From contig NZ_CP053842.1 in NCBI RefSeq assembly GCF_013201645.1, positions 372,001-436,000 on the forward strand: DNA of 64,000 nucleotides, in the 5' to 3' direction. Position numbers and translations under genes: made by a program. Positions within the stretch are counted from its first letter, which is position 1, and each line of letters starts with the position of its first letter. Origin of the DNA: Campylobacter corcagiensis. GTDB lineage: Bacteria; Campylobacterota; Campylobacteria; Campylobacterales; Campylobacteraceae. Positions 7,788 through 24,529 of this stretch are shown here, one piece after another. Under the pieces are notes generated by a model. The model did no database searches. It was given only the letters and a program-made list of their open reading frames with translations, and had not been told where the DNA came from.

Positions 7788-10461
7788 TGATATAGCACTA
7801 GAGCTAGGTTATGATAACAAAGAGATCATTAAAAAAGCCCATGAAATGGGGCTTAAAAAGGTAAAAGCTGCAAATAGTAAAGTAAGTGTTGATGATGCTG
7901 AAGCTATCTATAACTATATTCAAACAGGCGAATTGCCAAAGAAAAAAAAGACTACAAGGGCTAAGAAAAATGTTGTGGTTGATGAAGATATTGATATAGT
8001 TGAGCCTAAAAAAGAGGAACTTGAAGCTAAAAAACCGGTAAAAAAAGCAAAGCCTGATGTTAAAAAACCATCTAAAGAGCCTGCTGTGGAAGTAGAAAAA
8101 ACAGAACCAGCAAAACAAGATGTTAAAAAAGAAAAGATTGTAGAAGCTAAAAAATCTACTCCTACTGAGAGTGAAAATTTAAAGCCAAAAGAGCCTACAA
8201 AAGTTGAAGACAAAATTCCAGGCGTTACAAAAATCAAAAAAGAAAGCGTTGCATCTTCACTTGGCAAAAGAAAAGGTATAGTTATTCTTAAAAAGAAAAA
8301 AGAAGATAAAGAGTCAAATACTTCAGTTAAAAAACCTTCTACAAAGTTAAATGTAGGGCTTGATACGCTTTTTTCAAATGCTGAAACATCACTAAATAAA
8401 AAGAAAAAAGAGAAGCAAAAAATACATCAAACTCCTAAAAGAGAAGGGGTTAAAAAGGTTGAACTTCTTGATGATAGAGGTATGGCAGATATAAATTTTG
8501 AAGATGACAATGAAGTAGTTTTACCCGATCTTACTGTTAAGCCTATCCAAGTAGAAGAAAGAAAAGAGACCAAAAAACAGCAAATTTATAAAAATTCTCA
8601 AGCAAGTTATACAAATCAAGATAACGCTCCTAGAAGTATAAGTAGAGGTTCTAGAAAAAAACATAAAAAAACTGTTAAAGTTGAGAATAATCAAGAGATT
8701 AAAAGTTTAGATATCCCAAAAGAGATTAGGGTTTATGAATTTGCTGATAAACTTGGTAAATCTCCAAGTGAGATTATCTCAAAGCTATTTATACTAGGGC
8801 TTATGGTTACTAAAAATGATTTCCTTGATGAAGATGCGATGGAAATTTTGGCTAGTGAGTTTGATATTGAGATAAATATCATTGATGAAGCAGAAGAATT
8901 TGACTATGTAAGTGCTTATAATCAAACAGATGATGATGAGAAAGATTTAAAACAAAGAGCTCCAGTTGTGACTATAATGGGACATGTTGATCATGGTAAG
9001 ACAAGCCTTCTTGATTATATAAGAAATTCTCGTGTTGCTACTGGCGAAGCTGGCGGTATTACACAACATGTTGGTGCTTATATGGTAACTAAAAACAATA
9101 GAGCTATCACTTTTATTGATACTCCAGGTCACGAAGCATTTACTGCTATGCGTGAAAGGGGTGCTCAAGTAACAGATATTGTTATTATAATTGTAGCAGC
9201 TGATGATGGTGTAAAGCCTCAAACAAAAGAAGCTGTTGCTCATGCAAAAGCGGCTGGTGTTCCTATAATAATTGCTATCAATAAAATGGATAAGCCTACT
9301 GCAAATCCAGATAAGGTTAAAACAGGTCTTTCTGAGCTTGATATTATGCCAGTTGATTGGGGTGGCTCATATGAGTTTGTTCCTATTTCAGCTAAAACTG
9401 GAATGGGCGTTGATGATCTTTTAGAGATAGTCTTGCTTCAAGCCGATCTTTTAGAGCTAAAAGCAAACCCAAATAGAAGTGCAAAAGCTACAGTTATAGA
9501 AAGCTCACTTCAAAAAGGAGTTGGAACTGTTGCTACTATTATAGTGGAAAATGGAACTTTAAGAGTTGGCGATAATGTAGTGGTTGGCTCAAGTTATGGC
9601 AGAGTTAGAGCTATAACTGATGATAGTGGTAAAGCTCTTAAAGATTTAAAGCCTGGTGAGTGTGGCGTTATAATAGGACTAAATGAAGTTCCAGAATCAG
9701 GCGAGACGCTTGTTTGCGTTGAGAACGAGAAGGTAGCTAGAGAGTATGCAAAGAAAATTTATGATCATAATAGAGCTCTTGAGTTATCTCGTTCGACAAA
9801 AGTTAGTCTTGAAGAACTTGGTGCAAAAATCGCAGAAGGTGAGCTAAAAACTCTTCCTGTTATTGTAAAAGCTGATGTTGGTGGAAGTTTAGAGGCTATT
9901 AAAGCTAGTCTTGAAAAACTTAGAAATGATGAGGTTAAAGTTGATATTATCCACAGTGGTGTTGGTGGTATTACTCAAAACGATATAAGTTTAGCAAGTG
10001 CTAGTGAAAACTGTGTGATTTTAGGATTTAACATACGCCCAACAGGTGATGTAAAAGAGAGCGCAAAACAAAAAGGCGTAACAATTAAAACTTATAATGT
10101 CATCTACTCGATGCTTGATGATGTAAAAGCTGTGCTTGGCGGACTGATGAGTCCTATAATTAGTGAAGAAGAGATTGGTCAAGCTGAAATTCGTCAAGTT
10201 ATAAATGTTCCAAAAGTTGGTCAAATTGCTGGATGTATGGTTACTGATGGCAAGATTGTTCGTGGAGCAAAGATTAGAGTTATTCGTGAAGGTATTATTA
10301 AATTTGAAGGCGAGATAAGCTCTCTTAAACGCTTCAAAGATGACGCAAAAGAGGTAGCAAAAGGTTTTGAGTGTGGTGTTGGAATTGTTGGATATGATGA
10401 TATGCAAGTTGGGGATTTTATTGAGAGCTTTATAGAAAAAGAGCAAAAGGTTGTCTTGTAG
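7768..10461 (+). CDS. infB: Translation initiation factor IF-2
   Basis: This GTPase delivers initiator tRNA to the ribosome. It is 897 residues long. An N-terminal IF2N domain (about 1-55) is followed by a long Lys/Glu-rich linker (about 56-310), a second IF2N-like segment ([18 protein letters not shown]) and the GTPase core. G motifs seen are GHVDHGKTS (about residue 405), DTPGH, NKMD and SAK. The C-terminal IF2 domains II-IV follow, ending [10 protein letters not shown]. The start has a strong site (AAGGAGAG) inside ylxR. The stop abuts the rbfA ATG. The linker's low-complexity lysine coding explains the long antisense open frames opposite it. Confidence 0.97.
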
Positions 10462-12226: not shown

Positions 12227-12727
12227 TTGAGTAAAATCATAGATAAGATCAAAAAGTACCCCTCTACTTTTGCAGCTTTACTGCTTATTGTAAGCTTTGG
12301 AGTTGTAATAGGTCATGGACTTTTTACCTTTGTGTATGCAAAAGGGTTTTCATATATGAGTGACGATCCTTTAGCCTGTAAAAACTGTCATGTTATGAAT
12401 CAAGTCTATGAGAACTGGATGAAAGGTGGACACCAACAGGTTGCCACCTGTAATGATTGTCATGTTCCTCATGATTTTATTGGTAAATGGATGATGAAAG
12501 CTGAAAGTGGACTTCATCATGGATATGCAGTTACTTTCAAGGAAAATCCAGTATCTTTTACAGCTACACCAAAAAGTAAAAAAATAGTTCAAGACAACTG
12601 TATTCGTTGTCATGGAGATTATGCTGCTTTCTCAGTAGATGCTACCCAAAAAGCCGGTAGTTCTATAAGCGAGCCACTATCATGTATCTCTTGCCATAGG
12701 CAAGCTGGACATGCACATAACTTTTAA
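12227..12727 (+). CDS. nrfH: Cytochrome c nitrite reductase small subunit, tetraheme quinol dehydrogenase
   Basis: NrfH is a NapC/NirT-type membrane-anchored cytochrome that takes electrons from menaquinol and passes them to NrfA. The 166-residue protein has one N-terminal membrane helix (about 14-36). It has four CxxCH heme sites: CKNCH (51-55, followed by Met57, matching the CxxCHxM ligand arrangement of NrfH), CNDCH (75-79), CIRCH (125-129) and CISCH (153-157). The start is TTG behind AAGGAGG. It lies 21 bases upstream of nrfA, forming an nrfHA operon. Confidence 0.96.
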   Translation: MSKIIDKIKKYPSTFAALLLIVSFGVVIGHGLFTFVYAKGFSYMSDDPLACKNCHVMNQVYENWMKGGHQQVATCNDCHVPHDFIGKWMMKAESGLHHGYAVTFKENPVSFTATPKSKKIVQDNCIRCHGDYAAFSVDATQKAGSSISEPLSCISCHRQAGHAHNF

Positions 12728-14500: not shown

Positions 14501-14534
14501 TAGTAAGAACTTAGTAAGAACAATTTTATATAAT
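14501..14534 (+). promoter_or_regulatory. assT1 promoter with tandem direct repeat (putative OmpR-family operator)
   Basis: The 10-mer TAGTAAGAAC occurs at 14501-14510 and again, identically, at 14512-14521. That is an 11-bp repeat period, the spacing usual for OmpR/PhoB-class binding sites. A TATAAT -10 box follows at 14529-14534, so the repeat covers the -35 region. Seven of the ten bases are A/T, but an exact 10-mer at helical spacing in this place is notable. The cognate regulator could be the OmpR-type protein encoded at 23846-24529; that link is inference. Confidence 0.55.
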
Positions 14535-14562
14535 TCAATTTGAAATATATTAAGGAGAAAGT

Positions 14563-16410
14563 ATGAAAAAAATTCTTAGTTCAGCACTTGTTGCTGGTAT
14601 GTTACTTACAGTTAGCACTACGGCTTCTTTTGCTATCGGCGGTGCAAGTGGACCAAAGATTGATTATGCAGTTCAAGGCAAGCTTGGAGAGTTGGTTGTA
14701 AATCCTTATGATGTAGCACCTCTTACAGCAGTTATTAAAAATGGCGGATACAATATCAAAAACGCAACTGTTAGAATCGTTCCAAAAGAGAACGGTCAAG
14801 AGATAAAATATAAAGTTGCTGATGGTGAGCTAAAAACTCATGGTGGAATTCCTGTTTTTGGTCTGTATCCTGATTATGTAAATAAAGTTGAAGTTGAGTA
14901 TACAAAGAGCTACAAAGGCAAAGATGAAACCCTTAAAGAGACTTATGAAATTTACACAGCACCAGTTTTCCTAGATGTTTCTGGTCATAAAGGACAAAAA
15001 GGTGTACTGTTTGATGATATTGAAGTTGTAACTCCTGCAATTGATAAATTTAAAGATAGACTATATTTTGTAAATAACTTTCAAAATAAAACTGGAAAAG
15101 GTACAAAAGTTGTATGGAACAACCCAATGGGCGGAGCATTAGAGTGGAACTATAACCCACAAATTTTTATCCTAGATACAAAAGGCGAAGTTAGATGGTA
15201 TCTAGACCCAGCTAAAATTTATAACTTAAAATCAGCTTTTAATGCTGGTGTTATGATGGGCTTTAAACAAAATGAAGATGGCGATTTAACTTGGGGATAT
15301 GGTCAAAGATACGCTAAATATGACATCATGGGTAGAGAAATTTGGAATAGAGAACTTCCAGCTGGATATGTTGATTTTTCTCACTCACTTGATGATAGTC
15401 CAAATGGAAACTATTTCTTAAGAGTTGCAAATGCAAATTTAAAAAGACTTGATGGTAAAAATGTAAGAACTGTTAGAGATGTGATCGTTGAGGTTGATAA
15501 AAACGGACAAGTTGTGGATGATTGGAGACTTTATGAAATTTTAGATCCTTATAGAGATAATGTCTTAAAAGTTCTTGATCAAGGTGCAGTTTGTTTAAAT
15601 ATTGATGCAAGTCAAACAGGTCATACTTTAAGTGAAGAAGATTTAGCTAAGATGGATGATAATAATAACTTTGGTGATATCGTTGGAAGCGGACCTGGTA
15701 GAAACTGGGCTCATGTTAACTCAGTAGATCATGACGCAGAAGATGATAGCATCATCATCTCAAGCCGCCATCAAAATGCAATTATCAAAATCGGTAGAGA
15801 TAAAAAAGTTAAATGGATTTTAGGAAATCCAGTTGGTTGGAAAGATGAGTTTAAATCAAAACTTCTAACTCCAGTTGATAGCAAAGGAAATAAAATTTCT
15901 TGCGGTGCTGATGGTGCAAAATGCCCTGGTTATGAAAATGACAAAGGCGGATTTGATTATACTTGGACACAACACACAGCATTTAAAATCGATGAAAAAA
16001 GTAAAGGCGATATCATCTATGTAAGTGCGTTTGATAATGGTGATAGCCGTGGTATGGAACAACCTGCTCTTCCAACAATGAAATACTCACGCGCTGTTGT
16101 TTACAAAATCGATCAAAAGAAAATGACAGTTGAGCAGGTTTGGGAATACGGCAAAGATAGAGGATTTGACTGGTATAGCTCAGTTACAAGCTTAACAGAG
16201 TATCAAGCTGATAAAGACTCTATTATGACTTATTCAGCTGTTGCCGGAATGCAGTTTGATATAGCAACTGGAGCACCAACAGGTCTTCCAAGTCCACATA
16301 TTAACGAATTTGAGTGGGGTTCAACAACTCCTGGCATAGAGATTAAAATGACAAATGCAATGGGCTATCAAGCGTGGCCATTTAGCATTGAAAAGGCTCT
16401 TTCAAAATAA
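14563..16410 (+). CDS. Aryl-sulfate sulfotransferase AssT, copy 1
   Basis: AssT is a periplasmic PAPS-independent enzyme that moves sulfate from one phenolic ester to another phenol through a sulfo-histidine intermediate. The 615-residue protein has a Sec signal peptide (cut after SFA, about 24). By motif comparison with E. coli AssT the active-site residues are present: His274 (DFSHSLDD), His384 (NWAHVNSV), Arg402 (SSRHQNA) and His471 (WTQHTAF). A CX6C pair (447/454) lies near the last His, where the E. coli enzyme has a disulfide. It is the first of four tandem copies and is closest to copy 2 by eye. It has an AAGGAG site and its own promoter. Confidence 0.93.
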   Translation: MKKILSSALVAGMLLTVSTTASFAIGGASGPKIDYAVQGKLGELVVNPYDVAPLTAVIKNGGYNIKNATVRIVPKENGQEIKYKVADGELKTHGGIPVFGLYPDYVNKVEVEYTKSYKGKDETLKETYEIYTAPVFLDVSGHKGQKGVLFDDIEVVTPAIDKFKDRLYFVNNFQNKTGKGTKVVWNNPMGGALEWNYNPQIFILDTKGEVRWYLDPAKIYNLKSAFNAGVMMGFKQNEDGDLTWGYGQRYAKYDIMGREIWNRELPAGYVDFSHSLDDSPNGNYFLRVANANLKRLDGKNVRTVRDVIVEVDKNGQVVDDWRLYEILDPYRDNVLKVLDQGAVCLNIDASQTGHTLSEEDLAKMDDNNNFGDIVGSGPGRNWAHVNSVDHDAEDDSIIISSRHQNAIIKIGRDKKVKWILGNPVGWKDEFKSKLLTPVDSKGNKISCGADGAKCPGYENDKGGFDYTWTQHTAFKIDEKSKGDIIYVSAFDNGDSRGMEQPALPTMKYSRAVVYKIDQKKMTVEQVWEYGKDRGFDWYSSVTSLTEYQADKDSIMTYSAVAGMQFDIATGAPTGLPSPHINEFEWGSTTPGIEIKMTNAMGYQAWPFSIEKALSK

Positions 16411-16414
16411 CACT

Positions 16415-16439
16415 AAAGCCCTAAAATTTAGGGCTTTTT
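16415..16439 (+). terminator. Hairpin between assT1 and assT2
   Basis: AAAGCCCTAAA / TTTAGGGCTTT followed by TT and an A-rich stretch. It starts 5 bases after the assT1 stop. No -10 box is apparent before assT2, so it probably leaks and sets an expression gradient. Confidence 0.65.
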
Positions 16440-16501
16440 AAATTTAGACCAAAGTTTCAAATTTAAACTAAATTTAAAGATGAAATTTTAATCTAAATTT
16501 A
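16440..16501 (+). repeat. assT spacer repeat, copy A
   Basis: This 62-nt leader segment of assT2 is nearly the same as 20333-20394 before assT4. The first 29 bases are identical, and differences are confined to a few positions plus one 6-base patch. It marks duplication or gene conversion within the assT array. Confidence 0.75.
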
Positions 16502-16520: not shown

Positions 16521-18380
16521 TTGAAAAAGATTTTAAGTTCAGCTTTGGTTGCTGGTTTATTACTTTCAGTTGGCGTAACAAATGCTCTTGCTATGGGTGG
16601 TCCAAGTGGTGCAAAAGTTGACTGGGAAATTCAAGGCAAAATAGGAAGCATTAAGATAAATCCTTACAACCTAGCCCCACTAACAGCTGTTATAATGGAT
16701 GGTGGGTATAATCTAAGCGATATCGAAGTTACTATCGTTCCAAAAGAAAATGGTCAAACCATAAAATACAAAGTTGGTGAAAAAAGAGCAAAAACTTATG
16801 GTGGAATTCCGATTTTTGGTCTTTATCCAAACTACCTAAATACCGTAAAAGTAAGCTATACAAAAGAAAGCTTTGGCAAAAAAGAAAGCGTTAAAGATGA
16901 AGAGTATAAAATCGTAACAGGTGGAGTAAATTTACAACCATCTGGATATACAACCCAAAGAGGCGTTCCGTTTGAAAAAGTAAATGTTTTAAAAGTAGAT
17001 GATGAGTTTAAAAATAGACTTTATTTGGTAAATAATGCCCCTGGAAAAAGCCTAGGAAAAAGCTCAAATTCAGTTTGGAATAACCCAGCTGGTGGAGCGA
17101 TGGAGTGGGATGAAGAATCAAGTGCGTTTATAGTTGATACAAAAGGCGAGATTAGATGGTTTTTTGACAACGCAAAACTTATGGACTGGCATAATATCTA
17201 TAACCGAGGACTTATGATGGGATTTCATCAAAATGATGATGGCTCACTAACTTGGGGCTTTGGTCAAAGATATGTAAAATATGACTTAATGGGAAAAGAG
17301 AGCTTCAACCGCCAACTTCCACTTGGATACATCGACTTTTCACACGCGATGGATGATATGCAAAATGGAAATTATCTCTTAAGAGTAGCTTCAGCTAATA
17401 CTTTACGCCCTGATGGTAAAAATGTTCGCACCGTTAGAGATGTTATCGTTGAGGTAAATCAAGATGGTGATGTGATCGATGAGTGGAAACTTTTTGAAAT
17501 TTTAGATCCATATAGAAGCGATGTTATTAAAGCACTTGATCAAGGTGCAGTTTGTTTAAACATCGATGCAAGTATGGCTGGAAAAACTTTAAGTGATGAA
17601 GATCTAGCAAAAATGGATGCTAGCGATAATTTTGGCGATATCGCAGGAACTGGTATTGGTAGAAACTGGGCTCATGTAAATTCAGTTGATTATGACCCAA
17701 CAGATGATAGTATTATCATTTCAAGCCGTCACCAAAGTGCGATTATAAAAATCGGACGCGATAAAAAAGTAAAATGGATAATTGGAGCACACAAAGGCTG
17801 GAATGATAAATTTAAAGATAAACTTCTTCAACCAGTTGATAACAAAGGAAATAAAATCGTTTGCGAAGATGGATATTCAAAATGCCCTGGCTATGAGAAT
17901 GAAAAAGGTGGATTTGACTGGACTTGGACACAACATACTGCTTGGAGAATTGATGAAAAATCAGACAAAAGATATGTTTATGTAACAGCTTTTGATAACG
18001 GCGATGCAAGAGGTATCGAACAACCTGCTTTACCAACTATGAAATACTCACGCGCTGTAATTTACAAAGTCGATCAAGAAAAAATGACAGTTGAGCAAAT
18101 TTGGGAATATGGCAAAAACAGAGGAAATGAGTGGTATAGCCCAGTTACAAGCTTAACAGAGTATCACGGCGATACAGATAGTATCGTTGTTTATTCAGCA
18201 ACTGCTGGAATGAGCTTTGATCTAAATGCTGGAGTAAGCGTTGGGGAGCCTAAGCCTGAGATTGATGAGTTTAAATGGGGAGCAAGCGAGCCATCAGTTC
18301 AAATTCAATTTATCGGCTCAGATGCAGGATATCAAGCAATGCCAATTAGTCTTGAAAAAGCATTTGGTAAAACAAAATAA
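16521..18380 (+). CDS. Aryl-sulfate sulfotransferase AssT, copy 2
   Basis: A 619-residue paralogue of copy 1 with the same layout. A signal peptide is cut after ALA, followed by an N-terminal immunoglobulin-like region with TIVPKENGQTIKYKV, shared with copy 1 and not copies 3-4. The propeller carries the catalytic motifs DFSHAMDD, NWAHVNSV, SSRHQSA and WTQHTAW. The CX6C pair is kept in the segment from C-EDG to SKC. The start is TTG, unlike the other three copies, behind AAGGAG, which may lower its translation. It is preceded by spacer repeat A. Confidence 0.93.
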   Translation: MKKILSSALVAGLLLSVGVTNALAMGGPSGAKVDWEIQGKIGSIKINPYNLAPLTAVIMDGGYNLSDIEVTIVPKENGQTIKYKVGEKRAKTYGGIPIFGLYPNYLNTVKVSYTKESFGKKESVKDEEYKIVTGGVNLQPSGYTTQRGVPFEKVNVLKVDDEFKNRLYLVNNAPGKSLGKSSNSVWNNPAGGAMEWDEESSAFIVDTKGEIRWFFDNAKLMDWHNIYNRGLMMGFHQNDDGSLTWGFGQRYVKYDLMGKESFNRQLPLGYIDFSHAMDDMQNGNYLLRVASANTLRPDGKNVRTVRDVIVEVNQDGDVIDEWKLFEILDPYRSDVIKALDQGAVCLNIDASMAGKTLSDEDLAKMDASDNFGDIAGTGIGRNWAHVNSVDYDPTDDSIIISSRHQSAIIKIGRDKKVKWIIGAHKGWNDKFKDKLLQPVDNKGNKIVCEDGYSKCPGYENEKGGFDWTWTQHTAWRIDEKSDKRYVYVTAFDNGDARGIEQPALPTMKYSRAVIYKVDQEKMTVEQIWEYGKNRGNEWYSPVTSLTEYHGDTDSIVVYSATAGMSFDLNAGVSVGEPKPEIDEFKWGASEPSVQIQFIGSDAGYQAMPISLEKAFGKTK

Positions 18381-18384
18381 CATT

Positions 18385-18410
18385 AAAGCCCTAAATTTAG
18401 GGCTTTTTTT
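18385..18410 (+). terminator. Hairpin between assT2 and assT3
   Basis: AAAGCCCTAAATTTAGGGCTTT followed by a run of T. This is the strongest terminator-like signal of the array, so copies 3 and 4 may be expressed less than 1 and 2 unless a promoter lies in the 104-bp gap. I see no clear -10 box there. Confidence 0.75.
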
Positions 18411-18484
18411 AAATTTATATAAAAATCCTTAAATTTAAAGAGTTTTTATCTAAATTTAATCAAATTTAACAAAAAGGAGAGTAT

Positions 18485-20305
18485 ATGAAAAAAGTTTTTA
18501 GTTCAGTTTTAGTCGCTGGAATGCTACTTAGCGTTGGAGTGACAACTTCTTTTGCTATTGGTGGAGCAAGTGGTCCAGTTAGCTATAAACCCGCTGGAAA
18601 ACTTGGTGCTATTTTTATGAATCCTTACAAAGTTGCCCCACTGACTGCTGTTATACTAAATGGCGGATATGATGTTACAGATGTAAGCGTTACAGTAAAA
18701 GGTAAGCCAAATGGCGGAATTGATATAAGCTATAATCCATCAAATAACGCAGTTAGATTACATGGTGGAATTCCAATTTGGGGACTTTATCCTGAGTATC
18801 AAAACGAAGTAGAAGTAAGCTATAAAAGAGATGGCGAAGCTATAAAAGAAACTTATAAAATTTATGGACCAGCTGTTTATATGCCAGGACCCGGAAATAA
18901 TCAATTTGGCACACTTCCAAAAGCAGAAGTTGTAAAAATGGATGATAAATTTAAAGATAGATTATATTTGATGAATCACATTATAAGAGCCTCAACTCCA
19001 AATTCAGGTCAAGCAGTTTGGAATCATCCAGTTGGCGGTGCGATGGAGTGGGATAATGAACCATATAATTGGATCATAGATGCAAATGGTGATATTAGGT
19101 GGTATATGAAAGCTGATGAGATAAGAGATCCTGAAAATATCTATAAAAAAGGTAATATTATGGGATTTTCTCAAACTGATGATGGGGCACTACTTTTTGC
19201 AATGGGACAAAGATATATGAAATATGACCTTATGGGAAGAGAGATATTTGATAGAAGGCTTCCGCTATCATATATAGATTTCTCACACCACATAGAACAA
19301 ACTCCAAAAGGCACATATCTAATAAGAGTTGCATCAGCTGATGAAAAAAGAAAAGATGGCAAAAATGTAAGAAGCGTTAGAGATGTTATAGTTGAACTTG
19401 ATGAAAGCGGAAGAGTTGTTGATGAGTGGAAAATTTATGATATTTTAGATCCATATAGAGATAATAACATTTTAGCAATGGATCAAGGTGCAGTTTGTTT
19501 AAATGTTGATGCCACGCTCGCAGGTCAAACGCTAGACAAAGAAGACCTTGAAGATGATTCTATGCCATTTGGCGATGTTGCAGGAGTTGGAGTTGGTAGA
19601 AACTGGGCTCATATAAACTCTGTAAATTATGACGCAACTGATGATAGTATAATACTATCAGTTAGACATCAAGGTGCAGCTGTTAAGGTTGGAAGAGATA
19701 AAAAAGTTAAGTGGATTTTAGGCTCACACGAGGGTTGGAGTGATAAATTTAAACCATATCTATTAAAGCCAATTGATGAAAATGGAAAAGAGATTATTTG
19801 TGAAGCAGATGGATCAAAATGCCCAGGATATCTAAATGAAAAGGGTGGATTTGACTGGACTTGGACTCAACACACTGCTTATGTAGTGCCAGAAAAATCA
19901 AAACCAGGACTTCTTAGAGTAACTATCTTTGACAATGGCGATAGCCGTGGTATGGAACAACCTGCACTTCCAAATATGAAGTACTCAAGGGCTGTTGAGT
20001 ATGAGGTTGATGAAAAAAATATGACTGTAAAACAGGTCTGGGAGTATGGTAAAGATAGAGGATTTGATTGGTATAGTCCGATAACTTCAGTTGTTGAGTA
20101 TCAACCAGATAGAAATACAATGTTTATCTACTCAGCAACAGCTGGACTTGGTAAATTTCTAATTGGAGAGGGCGAAACTGAGCCTATTTTAAACGAAATA
20201 GAAGATGAAACTCAAAATGTAAAGGTTGAAATTCGCCTAAAAGGTCTTGGTGGAACTATCGGATATAGAGCACTTCCAATAGATATCAAAAAAGCCTTTA
20301 ATTAG
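18485..20305 (+). CDS. Aryl-sulfate sulfotransferase AssT, copy 3
   Basis: A 606-residue paralogue with a Sec signal (cut after SFA). The catalytic motifs are DFSHHIEQ, NWAHINSV, SVRHQGA (Arg and His kept) and WTQHTAY, with a CX6C pair. The N-terminal region (VTVKGKPNGGIDISY) and SKEDLEDD-type segment (DKEDLEDDSMPFGDVAG) group it with copy 4 rather than copies 1-2. The C-terminal tail (NEIEDETQNVKVEIRLKG) differs most from the other copies, so its acceptor or donor range could differ. ATG start behind AAGGAG. Confidence 0.93.
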   Translation: MKKVFSSVLVAGMLLSVGVTTSFAIGGASGPVSYKPAGKLGAIFMNPYKVAPLTAVILNGGYDVTDVSVTVKGKPNGGIDISYNPSNNAVRLHGGIPIWGLYPEYQNEVEVSYKRDGEAIKETYKIYGPAVYMPGPGNNQFGTLPKAEVVKMDDKFKDRLYLMNHIIRASTPNSGQAVWNHPVGGAMEWDNEPYNWIIDANGDIRWYMKADEIRDPENIYKKGNIMGFSQTDDGALLFAMGQRYMKYDLMGREIFDRRLPLSYIDFSHHIEQTPKGTYLIRVASADEKRKDGKNVRSVRDVIVELDESGRVVDEWKIYDILDPYRDNNILAMDQGAVCLNVDATLAGQTLDKEDLEDDSMPFGDVAGVGVGRNWAHINSVNYDATDDSIILSVRHQGAAVKVGRDKKVKWILGSHEGWSDKFKPYLLKPIDENGKEIICEADGSKCPGYLNEKGGFDWTWTQHTAYVVPEKSKPGLLRVTIFDNGDSRGMEQPALPNMKYSRAVEYEVDEKNMTVKQVWEYGKDRGFDWYSPITSVVEYQPDRNTMFIYSATAGLGKFLIGEGETEPILNEIEDETQNVKVEIRLKGLGGTIGYRALPIDIKKAFN

Positions 20306-20310
20306 TCTTT

Positions 20311-20332
20311 AAAGCCCTAAATTTAGGGCTTT
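20311..20332 (+). terminator. Hairpin between assT3 and assT4
   Basis: AAAGCCCTAAATTTAGGGCTTT, a perfect palindrome 5 bases after the assT3 stop. It lacks a U-run (AAATTT follows), so termination is probably weak. Confidence 0.55.
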
Positions 20333-20394
20333 AAATTTAGACCAAAGTTTCAAATTTAAACCAAATTTTAAATTGAAATTTTACTCTAAATTTA
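20333..20394 (+). repeat. assT spacer repeat, copy B
   Basis: Near-copy of 16440-16501. It begins directly after the hairpin and ends just before the assT4 ribosome-binding site, the same arrangement as copy A before assT2. Confidence 0.75.
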
Positions 20395-20409: not shown

Positions 20410-22260
20410 ATGAAAAAAATTCTTAGTTCAGTTTTAGTTGCTAGTATGCTTTTATCAGTTGGCGTTAGTACTTCATTAGCAGCTGGTGGTGCAAGTGGTC
20501 CAAAAAGCTATAACGCAGTTGGCAAAATCGGTGCAGTTATAATGAACCCTTACGGCGTTGCCCCGCTAACTGCTATTATAAATGACGGCGGATACGCTAT
20601 AAAAAATGCAAAAGTCACAGTTAAAGGAAAAGGTGAAAAAGGCATCGATATAAGCTATGATGTTAGTGATTTAAATGTCTTACAACACGGCGGAATTCCA
20701 GTGTTTGGGCTTTATCCTGATTTTGTAAATACAGTTGAAGTAAGCTACAAAAGAGAAAATCCAGTCGCAGGTGGAATCAATAGCGAAGATATAAAAGAGA
20801 CTTATCAAATTTATGCTCCACCAGTTGTAACTTATGGCTCAGGAACAGCTCAAAAAATGGCCCTACCAAAAGCAGAAGTTGTAGTTCCAGCTAGTAAAAA
20901 TGTAAAAAATAATCTTTATTTGATGAATCATCTAAGCTCAACTATGCCAAACGCTTCTCAAGTTGTTTGGAATTTACCAGCTGGTGGAGCTTTGGAGTGG
21001 GATTATGAAAGCTATGTTTGGATGATAGATACAAATGGCGACATTAGATGGCAACTTGATGTTAGTAAATTTAGAGATCCTTATGATATCCGCAAAAAAG
21101 GAAATTTAATGGGCTTTGACCAGACAAAAGATGGAAACATCATGTGGGGTCAAGGACAAACTTATAAAAAATATGATCTTATGGGTAGAAAAATCTTTGA
21201 TAGAATGCTTCCAAGAAGTTATATCGACTTTTCTCACCACCTAGAAGAGACAGTTAAAGGCACTTATCTTTTAAGAGTTGCAAACTCAGACTTAAAAAGA
21301 CGAGATGGTAAAAATGTAAGAACTGTTAGAGATGTGATTGTTGAACTTGACAAAGAGGGAAATGTGCTTGACCAGTGGGATTTAAGTGCGATTTTAGATC
21401 CATATAGAGATAATAACATTTTAGCTATGGATCAAGGTGCAGTTTGTTTAAATATAGACGCTGATAAAGCTGGAAAAACTCTATCAAAAGAAGATCTTGA
21501 AGATGATTCTATGCCATTTGGAGATGTTGCAGGAGTTGGTGCTGGTAGAAACTGGGCACATGTAAATAGCGTAAATTACGATCCACATGATGATAGTATT
21601 ATAATTTCAAGCCGTCACCAAAGTGCAGTTATAAAAATCACACGAGATAAAAAAGTTAAGTGGATTTTAGGCTCACCTGAGGGCTGGAGTGAAGAGTTTC
21701 ATAAATATCTTTTAAAGCCAGTTGATAAAAATGGCAAAGAGATCGTTTGCGAGGCTGAGGGTTCAAAATGTCCAGGATATTTAAGCGATAAAGGTGGCTT
21801 TGACTGGTCATGGACACAGCACACCGCTTATGTTATCCCTGAAAAGTCAAAAGATCATCTCCGTCATGTAAGCACATTTGATAACGGAGATAGCCGTGGT
21901 ATGGAACAACCTGCTCTTGTTACTATGAAATACAGCCGTGCGGTTGAGTATGTTGTAGATGAGAAAAATATGACCGTGCAGCAAATTTGGGAGTTTGGAA
22001 AAGAAAGAGGGCTTGACTGGTATAGTCCAATTACTTCTGTAACTGAGTATATGCCAAAAACTGATACTATGATGGTTTATTCAGCAACTGCTGGAATGGG
22101 CGATTTAGTCGCATTTAGAGCTGGAACAGCACAGCTTACCCCGTATCTTCACGAGTTTAAATACGGTACAAAAGAGCCTGAACTTGAGATAAAAATGGTT
22201 GGTGGAAATATCATCGGATATAGAGCTTTAGTAATTGACTATAAAGACTCTTTTAAATAA
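20410..22260 (+). CDS. Aryl-sulfate sulfotransferase AssT, copy 4
   Basis: A 616-residue paralogue with a Sec signal (cut near SLA/AGG). The catalytic motifs are DFSHHLEE, NWAHVNSV, SSRHQSA and WTQHTAY, plus the CX6C pair. It shares VTVKGKGEKGIDISY and the KEDLEDDSMPFGDVAG segment with copy 3, so copies 3 and 4 form one sub-pair. ATG start behind AAAAGGAG. It is followed by its own hairpin and then by the histidine kinase gene 77 bases downstream. Confidence 0.93.
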   Translation: MKKILSSVLVASMLLSVGVSTSLAAGGASGPKSYNAVGKIGAVIMNPYGVAPLTAIINDGGYAIKNAKVTVKGKGEKGIDISYDVSDLNVLQHGGIPVFGLYPDFVNTVEVSYKRENPVAGGINSEDIKETYQIYAPPVVTYGSGTAQKMALPKAEVVVPASKNVKNNLYLMNHLSSTMPNASQVVWNLPAGGALEWDYESYVWMIDTNGDIRWQLDVSKFRDPYDIRKKGNLMGFDQTKDGNIMWGQGQTYKKYDLMGRKIFDRMLPRSYIDFSHHLEETVKGTYLLRVANSDLKRRDGKNVRTVRDVIVELDKEGNVLDQWDLSAILDPYRDNNILAMDQGAVCLNIDADKAGKTLSKEDLEDDSMPFGDVAGVGAGRNWAHVNSVNYDPHDDSIIISSRHQSAVIKITRDKKVKWILGSPEGWSEEFHKYLLKPVDKNGKEIVCEAEGSKCPGYLSDKGGFDWSWTQHTAYVIPEKSKDHLRHVSTFDNGDSRGMEQPALVTMKYSRAVEYVVDEKNMTVQQIWEFGKERGLDWYSPITSVTEYMPKTDTMMVYSATAGMGDLVAFRAGTAQLTPYLHEFKYGTKEPELEIKMVGGNIIGYRALVIDYKDSFK

Positions 22261-22337: not shown

Positions 22338-23849
22338 TTGAAAAATTTCTTAAAAACTATCTTTTTTACCATTAAAAATCTTAAGATAAATAAACTGTTA
22401 TTTGCATTTACCATATTTTTAGCATTTACTGGGATATTTAGTTACTTTCATATAAAGTCTGAAATTTCAAAAATTGGTTCTGAATTTGGCGAAAGCCTAA
22501 GCAAAGAGATTGTTTTTAGTATGAATGAGTGGCTAGATACGAGAACTGAATTTATAAAAACTATATCTAGTTCTTTTAAGAATTTATCAAAAGATGAGCT
22601 AATAGGTATAGAAATCGATAAAAGTAGAGTATTTTTTCAGCACTATCAATTTATATTAGATGATAAAAGTGCAATATTTGACGGCAAATATTATGATCTT
22701 AATAATTCATTAAATCCAGCTAAAATTTCAACTTGCAAAGAGCATGAAATTTTAAAAAAAACAACAATTGATATATGCCATACCATAGGACAAAATCGCC
22801 AGTTTTGTGGTGTTGTAGAAGCTAATGCTCTTTTTCCAAGCATAAGAAAGCAAATTCATGCATTTGTAGAAAATGCTTATCTTTTTGATGAAGATGGAGA
22901 GATACTTGCTATGTTAAATTCAGCAAATAAAATACCAAATTTAAACGACCCACGCCTTACAAAAGTTGAAAAAATAGGAAACTGGGGAACGGCTATAGAG
23001 GTTAGTAATCAAAAAATATTAGAAAAAACTCTAAAAATTTTACTAAATAACTCACTTATTTTACTTCTACTTTTTTCAGCACTTTCAATTACTTCTGGAC
23101 TTATATTTTCTTTTATAAATAGTACTTTTTTAAAAAAGCAAAAAGAGTACGAGGTTTTACTATCTCACAAGCTAAAAGTTTCTGAAACTGGTGAGCTTTT
23201 ATCTGCTATTTCTCATCAGTTAAGACAGCCAATAAATTCATCTTTACTTATGCTAACTTCTATTGTAAAACTCAAAAAAGATGGAAAACTTAGCGAAGAT
23301 GAACTGATAAATAATATAAATTTATGCATAAGATCAACAAAAATGATGGATGAGACGATCCAAAATTTTAGAAATTTTTATAAATTTAGTGATGATATTG
23401 TTGAGTTTGAACTAAACTCATCTATAAAAAATCTACTCTCGCTTTTACATATTGAATTTAGTAGAAAAAATGTCTCGGTTCAGGTTGAAAATTTTGAGAT
23501 ATGGTTAAAAACTAGTCAAAGCTATCTTTGGCAAGTACTTTTAGTTCTTCTTCAAAACTCAAAAGATGCTCTATCTTTTAAGAGAGGTTTAAAAACTATA
23601 ACCGTTAAAGCTAAAAATTTAGACGATATTGTTAAAATTTCAGTTATAGATAATGGAATTGGTATAGAACAAGATATGATAAAAGGAATTTTTAATAAAC
23701 AAAAAGTAAGCACAAAAATACACGGTAGTGGTATTGGGTTAAATTTGGCTAAGATGATAGTTGTAAAAAAGTTAGGTGGCGATATCATACTTAAAAGTAA
23801 CAAAAATCCTACAATATTTGAACTTACTATTAAAAAGGAGATTGTGTGA
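22338..23849 (+). CDS. Membrane sensor histidine kinase
   Basis: A two-component sensor of 503 residues. Membrane segment 1 is about 20-37 and segment 2 about 238-262. They bracket a periplasmic sensor region of about 200 residues with three cysteines (133, 147, 157). The cytoplasmic part has the phospho-acceptor His293 in ISHQLRQPINSS, N-box LLQNSKDAL, G1 DNGIGIEQDM and G2 HGSGIGLNLA. The start is TTG. It overlaps the response regulator gene (GTGTGA junction). Its position beside the assT array suggests it senses something tied to that array. The signal is unknown. Confidence 0.88.
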   Translation: MKNFLKTIFFTIKNLKINKLLFAFTIFLAFTGIFSYFHIKSEISKIGSEFGESLSKEIVFSMNEWLDTRTEFIKTISSSFKNLSKDELIGIEIDKSRVFFQHYQFILDDKSAIFDGKYYDLNNSLNPAKISTCKEHEILKKTTIDICHTIGQNRQFCGVVEANALFPSIRKQIHAFVENAYLFDEDGEILAMLNSANKIPNLNDPRLTKVEKIGNWGTAIEVSNQKILEKTLKILLNNSLILLLLFSALSITSGLIFSFINSTFLKKQKEYEVLLSHKLKVSETGELLSAISHQLRQPINSSLLMLTSIVKLKKDGKLSEDELINNINLCIRSTKMMDETIQNFRNFYKFSDDIVEFELNSSIKNLLSLLHIEFSRKNVSVQVENFEIWLKTSQSYLWQVLLVLLQNSKDALSFKRGLKTITVKAKNLDDIVKISVIDNGIGIEQDMIKGIFNKQKVSTKIHGSGIGLNLAKMIVVKKLGGDIILKSNKNPTIFELTIKKEIV

Positions 23850-24529
23850 ATGCTTTGCTTAAAGATATCTCAGTTTTAGTTGTTGAAGATGATGAACTTA
23901 CTGGAGTTGCTATTTTAACTGGGCTTAAGGAGTATTGTAAAGAGGTTTTCTTAGCAAAAGATGGACTTCAAGGCTTTGAAATGTTTAAGCTTCATAAAAT
24001 AGATGTTATAGTTACTGATATACATATGCCAAATTTAAACGGTCTTGATATGATAGAAGAGATTTTAAAACTAAAACCAGAGCAAAATTTTATCGTAGTA
24101 TCATCTTATGATAGTGATGAAAATTTACTTAAAAGCTTTAAAAAAGGTGCTATTTCATTTATAAAAAAGCCCATTTCTATGGACTATCTTCATCACTCTA
24201 TCGTAAAAAGCGTAGTTAGCAAAACTCAAAAGATACTAAATTTAAGTAAAGATGTCAAAGCCGATATGCTAAGCCAGAGAGTTTTTAAAGGTGAAAAAGA
24301 GGTATATCTCTCAAGGCTTGAAAGTTCTATTTTTTGGCTACTTTGTTACAATATCAACAACCTTGTAAGCTATGATATGATAGAAGAGTATGTTTATAGT
24401 GGTGATAGCGTTAATATTGGTCAAATTCACACAGCAATTGCCAGGATAAAATCAAAGCTCAAAGGAATAGACATATCAAATATCCAAAGCATGGGATATA
24501 AGCTAAATTTAAAGGCCGGTAATGAGTGA
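23846..24529 (+). CDS. OmpR-family response regulator
   Basis: A DNA-binding response regulator of 227 residues. The receiver domain has acidic residues Glu14-Asp15-Asp16, phospho-acceptor Asp58 (VIVTDIHMPN) and a conserved Lys in IKKPIS. The C-terminal winged-helix domain (about 145-225) ends with the SMGYKLN beta-hairpin typical of Trans_reg_C. The GTG start overlaps the kinase gene and AAGGAG precedes it. Its 3' end overlaps ribD by 8 bases. It is the natural candidate to bind the direct repeat at 14501-14521. Confidence 0.88.
   Translation: MNALLKDISVLVVEDDELTGVAILTGLKEYCKEVFLAKDGLQGFEMFKLHKIDVIVTDIHMPNLNGLDMIEEILKLKPEQNFIVVSSYDSDENLLKSFKKGAISFIKKPISMDYLHHSIVKSVVSKTQKILNLSKDVKADMLSQRVFKGEKEVYLSRLESSIFWLLCYNINNLVSYDMIEEYVYSGDSVNIGQIHTAIARIKSKLKGIDISNIQSMGYKLNLKAGNE

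Follow-up and report, generated by a model that had tools for sequence, protein, structure and literature searches.

A 10-bp tandem repeat with an 11-bp period before an arylsulfate sulfotransferase array of Campylobacter corcagiensis: a very probable binding site of the adjacent sensor-regulator pair

Results

Gene content and promoter of the sulfotransferase array

The window analysed here (the whole stretch of 64,000 nucleotides of the Campylobacter corcagiensis genome) carries an array of four arylsulfate sulfotransferase genes, assT1-4, preceded by a short tandem repeat (Table 1). Upstream of the repeat lie nrfH and nrfA, and downstream the four assT genes are followed by genes for a histidine kinase and an OmpR-type regulator, a ribD-like gene and a gene for a sulfate/dicarboxylate-type symporter. 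Such sulfotransferase arrays occur across Campylobacter and Sutterella-like bacteria. Part of the second contig matches a plasmid of C. corcagiensis with 100% identity, in keeping with a Campylobacter genome. Among the matches listed from named genomes, where entries for this genome or a very closely related one may be missing, the closest relative of AssT1 is found in C. portucalensis (88%).

Table 1. Coordinates of features at the assT locus (positions within the window)
Feature	Position	Strand	Basis or remark
Upstream half-site	14501..14510	+	TAGTAAGAAC; conserved core GTAAGAAC at 14503-14510
Downstream half-site, 11-bp period	14512..14521	+	TAGTAAGAAC; core GTAAGAAC at 14514-14521
-10 hexamer	14529..14534	+	TATAAT; 7 bp (14522-14528) past the second half-site
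Ribosome-binding site of assT1	14552..14557	+	AAGGAG; sequence reading
assT1, arylsulfate sulfotransferase, first gene past the repeat	14563..16410	+	Pfam Arylsulfotrans, 1.8e-136
assT2, own operator not found	16521..18380	+	Domain; motif search of the window
assT3, own operator not found	18485..20305	+	Domain; motif search of the window
assT4, own operator not found	20410..22260	+	Domain; motif search of the window
Sensor histidine kinase	22338..23849	+	Two membrane segments (~17-39, ~231-261), periplasmic domain, HisKA + HATPase_c
OmpR-type response regulator, proposed binder of 14501-14521	23846..24529	+	Receiver + Trans_reg_C

As the original prediction described, the repeat consists of two exact 10-bp copies, separated by the single base T14511 and followed after 7 bp by a TATAAT box. 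The promoter region reads CATAGTAAGAACTTAGTAAGAACAATTTTATATAATTC, and transcription of assT1 probably starts near 14541, which would place the repeat at about -40 to -20. No recognisable -35 hexamer is present at this site, where AGAACT stands at 17-bp spacing. A -35 box is generally missing from Campylobacter sigma-70 promoters (PMC3656092), so the earlier description of the repeat as lying over the -35 region holds for its position only.

The tandem TAGTAAGAACNTAGTAAGAAC, searched with up to three mismatches, has a single match in the window (shuffle mean 0.01) and a single match in the whole 1.69-Mb genome. It is also the only exact 10-bp repeat with an 11-bp period in the window; because 0.17 such repeats are expected from a second-order Markov model of the same length, the repeat alone is suggestive and no proof, and it is conservation that makes the case convincing. 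The window search agreed with the prediction that the repeat does not recur before nrfH, assT2-4 or the kinase gene, and separate operators before assT2-4 or the kinase gene were not found in this genome.

Each gap between assT genes (16415-16501, 18385-18470 and 20309-20390) contains a terminator-like hairpin (AAAGCCCTAAATTTAGGGCTTT) and then a long A/U-rich hairpin that ends just 5' of the ribosome-binding site, with fold z-scores of -6.4, -3.6 and -5.9 in this order. Twin hairpins of other sequence occupy the same places in genome G001 and partly in G009, and they possibly tune or protect the message of each assT gene. We infer that assT1-4 are transcribed from the assT1 promoter; a single transcript across them is not assured, because the terminator-like hairpins separate the genes.

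The kinase and the regulator

An OmpR-type regulator was predicted 3' of assT4, and it is present there together with its kinase. Pfam matches cover its receiver (Response_reg, 9e-21) and its winged helix (Trans_reg_C, 28.1 bits with a cut-off of 26.2), and the residues of phosphorylation, i.e., the acidic pair D15 and D16, the acceptor Asp D58 and K108, are invariant in 13 homologs. By these features it is a response regulator of the OmpR/PhoB type. The genome has 11 matches to this regulator.

The periplasmic domain of the kinase gives weak dCache matches in orthologs. Two periplasmic cysteines, about 10-14 residues apart in the sequences inspected, are kept in all 12 aligned orthologs (xICxx...xCGxx). 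In the kinase of the window these cysteines stand in an ICH...FCGVV context, a third cysteine is present besides, and the sensor region is shorter (503 aa versus about 550 in orthologs).

Conservation of the site and of the gene neighbourhood

In most relatives the kinase-regulator pair has assT or dsbA as a neighbour: it adjoins assT and/or a dsbA-dsbB-like gene pair in G008, G011, G015, G005, G007, G016, G055, G068 and the g4 genomes, with three such loci in G015, two in G016 and regulator identities of 41-61%. Both G011 and the genome of the window (G000) have dsbB-like genes that pass the NCBIfam cut-off for DsbI. In G009, an array of dsbA, dsbI and five assT genes and the kinase and regulator genes are on separate contigs. 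G015 and G016 contain several paralogous kinase-regulator pairs, each adjoining its own assT genes (L088, L090, L091).

Where the regulator is retained, the element is kept before assT or dsbA. In G011 it precedes assTa (GTGAGAACTTCGTAAGAAC-N7-TATAAT), assTb (ATTAGAACTTTGTGAGAAC) and dsbA (GTGACGACTTCGTAAGAAC-N7-TATAAT), and one dsbA paralogue of this genome has no site at its promoter. The dsbA gene of G009 is preceded by GTGATAATTTAGTAAGAAT-N7-TATAAT; G055 and G068 carry sites of the GTAAGAGT/GTAAGATT type before dsbA and GTAAGAGATATGTGACAAC before assT; and the site of G008 is weak (leave-one-out score 9.5, p=0.008). The genome of the window itself has a second site, GTTAGAAGTTTGTTAGAGT-N7-TATAAT, before dsbA-dsbI (C1:1620867), outside the window and 1.23 Mb from the assT1 site.

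Further copies were seen near these genes. Weaker ones precede the kinase gene and a TonB-dependent receptor gene in G055 and G068 (L147, L146; ~12284-12315, ~8380-8411), the receptor gene lying between dsbI and assT; the copy before the kinase gene may possibly reflect autoregulation. A good site in G015 precedes a gene for an OprD-type porin, perhaps a substrate channel, just upstream of the assT array (L084, 71-102).

Genome-wide searches and statistical tests

The exact pattern GTDAGA-N5-GTDAGA-N9-TATAAT has two matches in the genome of the window, at assT1 and dsbA-dsbI. Across 153 family genomes it has six, all before assT (G000, G011) or dsbA (G000, G055, G068, G060); only the G060 match is independent, as the genomes with the other five had contributed sites to the pattern. 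The sites behind both this pattern and the matrix used below were first chosen by eye. With one mismatch, the same 153 genomes gave 11 matches versus 12 for a reversed control, no excess, and it is thus exactness and location, not number, that carry the argument. The exact element with its -10 was found only before assT or dsbA, and not at unrelated places, in its own genome and in the 153 family genomes. A third exact half-site pair in the same genome (C1:912228) was rejected; it lies just inside an ABC-exporter gene and has no -10. A wide regulon was likewise rejected, as patterns with two or three mismatches or lacking the -10 match only at background level.

In leave-one-genome-out tests, a half-site matrix was trained on the other genomes, with G055 and G068 held out jointly, and about 200,000 positions were ranked in the genome of the window, whose two sites came 1st and 2nd. 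The three G011 sites ranked 1st-3rd, the G009 dsbA site 1st, and the three G015 sites 1st, 2nd and 4th. In G055 and in G068 the dsbA and assT sites took the first two ranks. Promoters belonging to the group of this regulator reached p <=0.0122 in 18 of 20 cases against 4,000 random windows, which include true sites and set a floor of about 0.0005 on p. Control assT and dsbA promoters, i.e., those beside regulators with another helix or not beside this group, including G001, which has no ortholog, gave p >0.05 in 15 of 16 cases, and 0.041 in the remaining one.

Among the periods compared for the half-sites, an 11-bp period sums to 262.7 and the runner-up, 13 bp, to 118.6; this control and the conserved sites agree with the earlier proposal that the repeat has the format of OmpR/PhoB-family operators, that is, tandem direct half-sites with a period of 11 bp (10-12). 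The distance to the -10 among the 18 best sites across relatives is 7 bp in 15 and 6 bp in three (G015 oprD, G015 assTa and G011 assTb). The element thus abuts the core promoter at a fixed distance without a good -35, as class II operators do.

Co-occurrence of the site and the recognition helix

The site co-occurs with one regulator subfamily. It is found with orthologs that carry an (I/V)HT(A/V) helix in G000, G008 (weak), G009, G011, G015, G055 and G068. G081 and G022 also have this helix, but no assT or complete dsbA-dsbI pair beside the regulator, and stand outside the comparison. With another helix (G005, G007, G016, g4) or without an ortholog (G001), there is at best a weak site. Promoters of assT and dsbA associated with IQN-type regulators often have an element with 11-bp spacing in the corresponding position, for which no clear consensus was obtained.

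In G060 (locus L199, ~8129-9627) the kinase match is split, and the regulator match falls into two pieces that cover nothing before residue 151; the dsbA operator is still exact despite these broken genes. This persistence is compatible both with recent decay of the regulator and with another reader of the site.

Discussion

A proposed operator shared by sulfotransferase and disulfide-forming genes

The TAGTAAGAAC tandem very probably serves the adjacent sensor-regulator pair as its docking site, because in Campylobacter relatives with a retained regulator the site precedes assT/dsb genes and is nearly confined to these places. We consider it highly probable that it serves as the operator of the 23846-24529 regulator, which would respond to the 22338-23849 kinase, activate assT1 and also control dsbA-dsbI. 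The link between the two-component system and the sulfotransferase array, proposed from the window alone, has gained support from gene neighbourhood, conservation and the co-occurrence of helix and site, and these comparisons point strongly to the adjoining regulator as the binding protein.

The phosphorylated regulator would bind as a head-to-tail dimer, with one subunit on each GTRAGAAC-like half-site, since the half-sites are direct, not inverted, and one helical turn apart, as for PhoB (PMC4415409). Bound just upstream of the -10, it would most likely touch sigma region 4 and activate in the class II, PhoB-like manner. The 7 bp to a good -10 and the missing -35 hexamer fit such activation; the absence of a -35 does not in itself prove dependence on an activator, because Campylobacter promoters are generally without one (PMC3656092). 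The same regulator would also drive the distant dsbA-dsbI operon, and sulfotransferases would then be made together with the disulfide-forming machinery on which they depend. Joint control would be sensible because AssT-type enzymes are Dsb substrates, as is stated for C. jejuni AstA (PMC3167755).

Alternative explanations

The simplest alternatives deny the repeat a specific regulator. A functionless 10-bp duplication could have arisen by chance, the repeat being only modestly rare for 64 kb, but other species conserve its position and sequence before assT and dsbA, and the same genome has a second site; we give this explanation practically no credence. Scarcely more credible is that the repeat represents nothing but the periodic A/T-rich pattern by which Campylobacter sigma-70 promoters make up for the -35 box, a pattern documented in about 89% of the promoter regions of C. 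jejuni (PMC3656092). That signal is A/T-rich, whereas much of the information in the half-sites is in G1, G5 and C8; the remaining promoters of these genomes do not score, and GTDAGA tandems at many unrelated promoters were sought and not found. Both explanations were rejected on the leave-one-out ranks, the locations of the exact matches and the promoter tests.

Other alternatives accept the operator and change its reader or the sign of its action. Another transcription factor, e.g., a second OmpR-type regulator, might bind it; the 11 regulator matches in the genome and the intact site of G060 beside a broken regulator would allow this, but the recognition helix of the subfamily tracks the site across genomes, and G001, which has four assT genes and an AssT of 88% identity, lacks both the regulator ortholog and the site. 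We regard a different reader as improbable. Repression, in which the regulator would block RNA polymerase over the -35 zone until a signal removes it, is somewhat less improbable but still unlikely. Many repressors bind at about -40 to -20, a perfect TATAAT is what a strong promoter needing repression might have, and the sign of regulation is read from geometry only. Yet activators of the PhoB type have this very geometry, with head-to-tail 11-bp sites just upstream of the -10, and PceP of Sulfurospirillum, an OmpR-family protein whose repeats overlap the -35, is described as an activator (PMC7755780). Activation is the reading that the geometry suggests.

A possible signal may be proposed for this regulator and its kinase. 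The two invariant cysteines of the kinase make periplasmic redox sensing possible, if speculative. The further suggestion that their thiol/disulfide state reports Dsb capacity, so that the regulator would set dsbA-dsbI and assT jointly in a disulfide feedback loop, is a doubtful one; if true, it would represent a dedicated two-component disulfide sensor coupled to sulfotransferases that need disulfides. The sensed signal could reveal the purpose of the sulfotransferase arrays, and a defined operator, a kinase-regulator pair and a second target make the regulon directly testable.

Comparison with known systems

The PHO box sits upstream of the -10, where it replaces the -35 element. PhoB and its box resemble the present system in having head-to-tail 11-bp direct-repeat units, about seven conserved positions and a regulator with receiver and winged helix (PMC4415409). 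They differ in the half-site, CTGTCAT in E. coli and GTRAGAAC here, and the present system has AssT/Dsb targets, another kinase input and 7 bp to the -10. PceS/PceP, which serves tetrachloroethene respiration in Sulfurospirillum, likewise has an OmpR-family regulator of the Campylobacterota whose gene adjoins those under its control, and -35-overlapping direct repeats in 11-bp steps (CTATA with 6-nt gaps) (PMC7755780). Its sequence, CTATW-N17-CTATW, and its regulon are different, and the likeness stands at the level of the OmpR family.

RacRS of C. jejuni is also a two-component system and directly activates metabolic genes (PMC4456614). At ggt, however, the binding site of RacR lies some 80 bp before the start, in contrast to the position next to the -10 here. 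In g2, the family genus that we take to be the one holding C. jejuni, there was no kinase match at 1e-60 and no operator match with up to one mismatch. The dsbA2-dsbB-astA operon of C. jejuni similarly places a sulfotransferase and Dsb genes under common control, but this control is described as dependent on iron and Fur, and no two-component operator is described in the accessible part of the source (PMC3167755). In the open-access literature searched we found no description of two-component control of assT/dsb in Campylobacter, and no regulator of the AssT/Dsb gene set besides Fur in C. jejuni. The operator described here is of the well-known OmpR/PhoB kind, and the AssT/Dsb regulon that it would define appears to be new.
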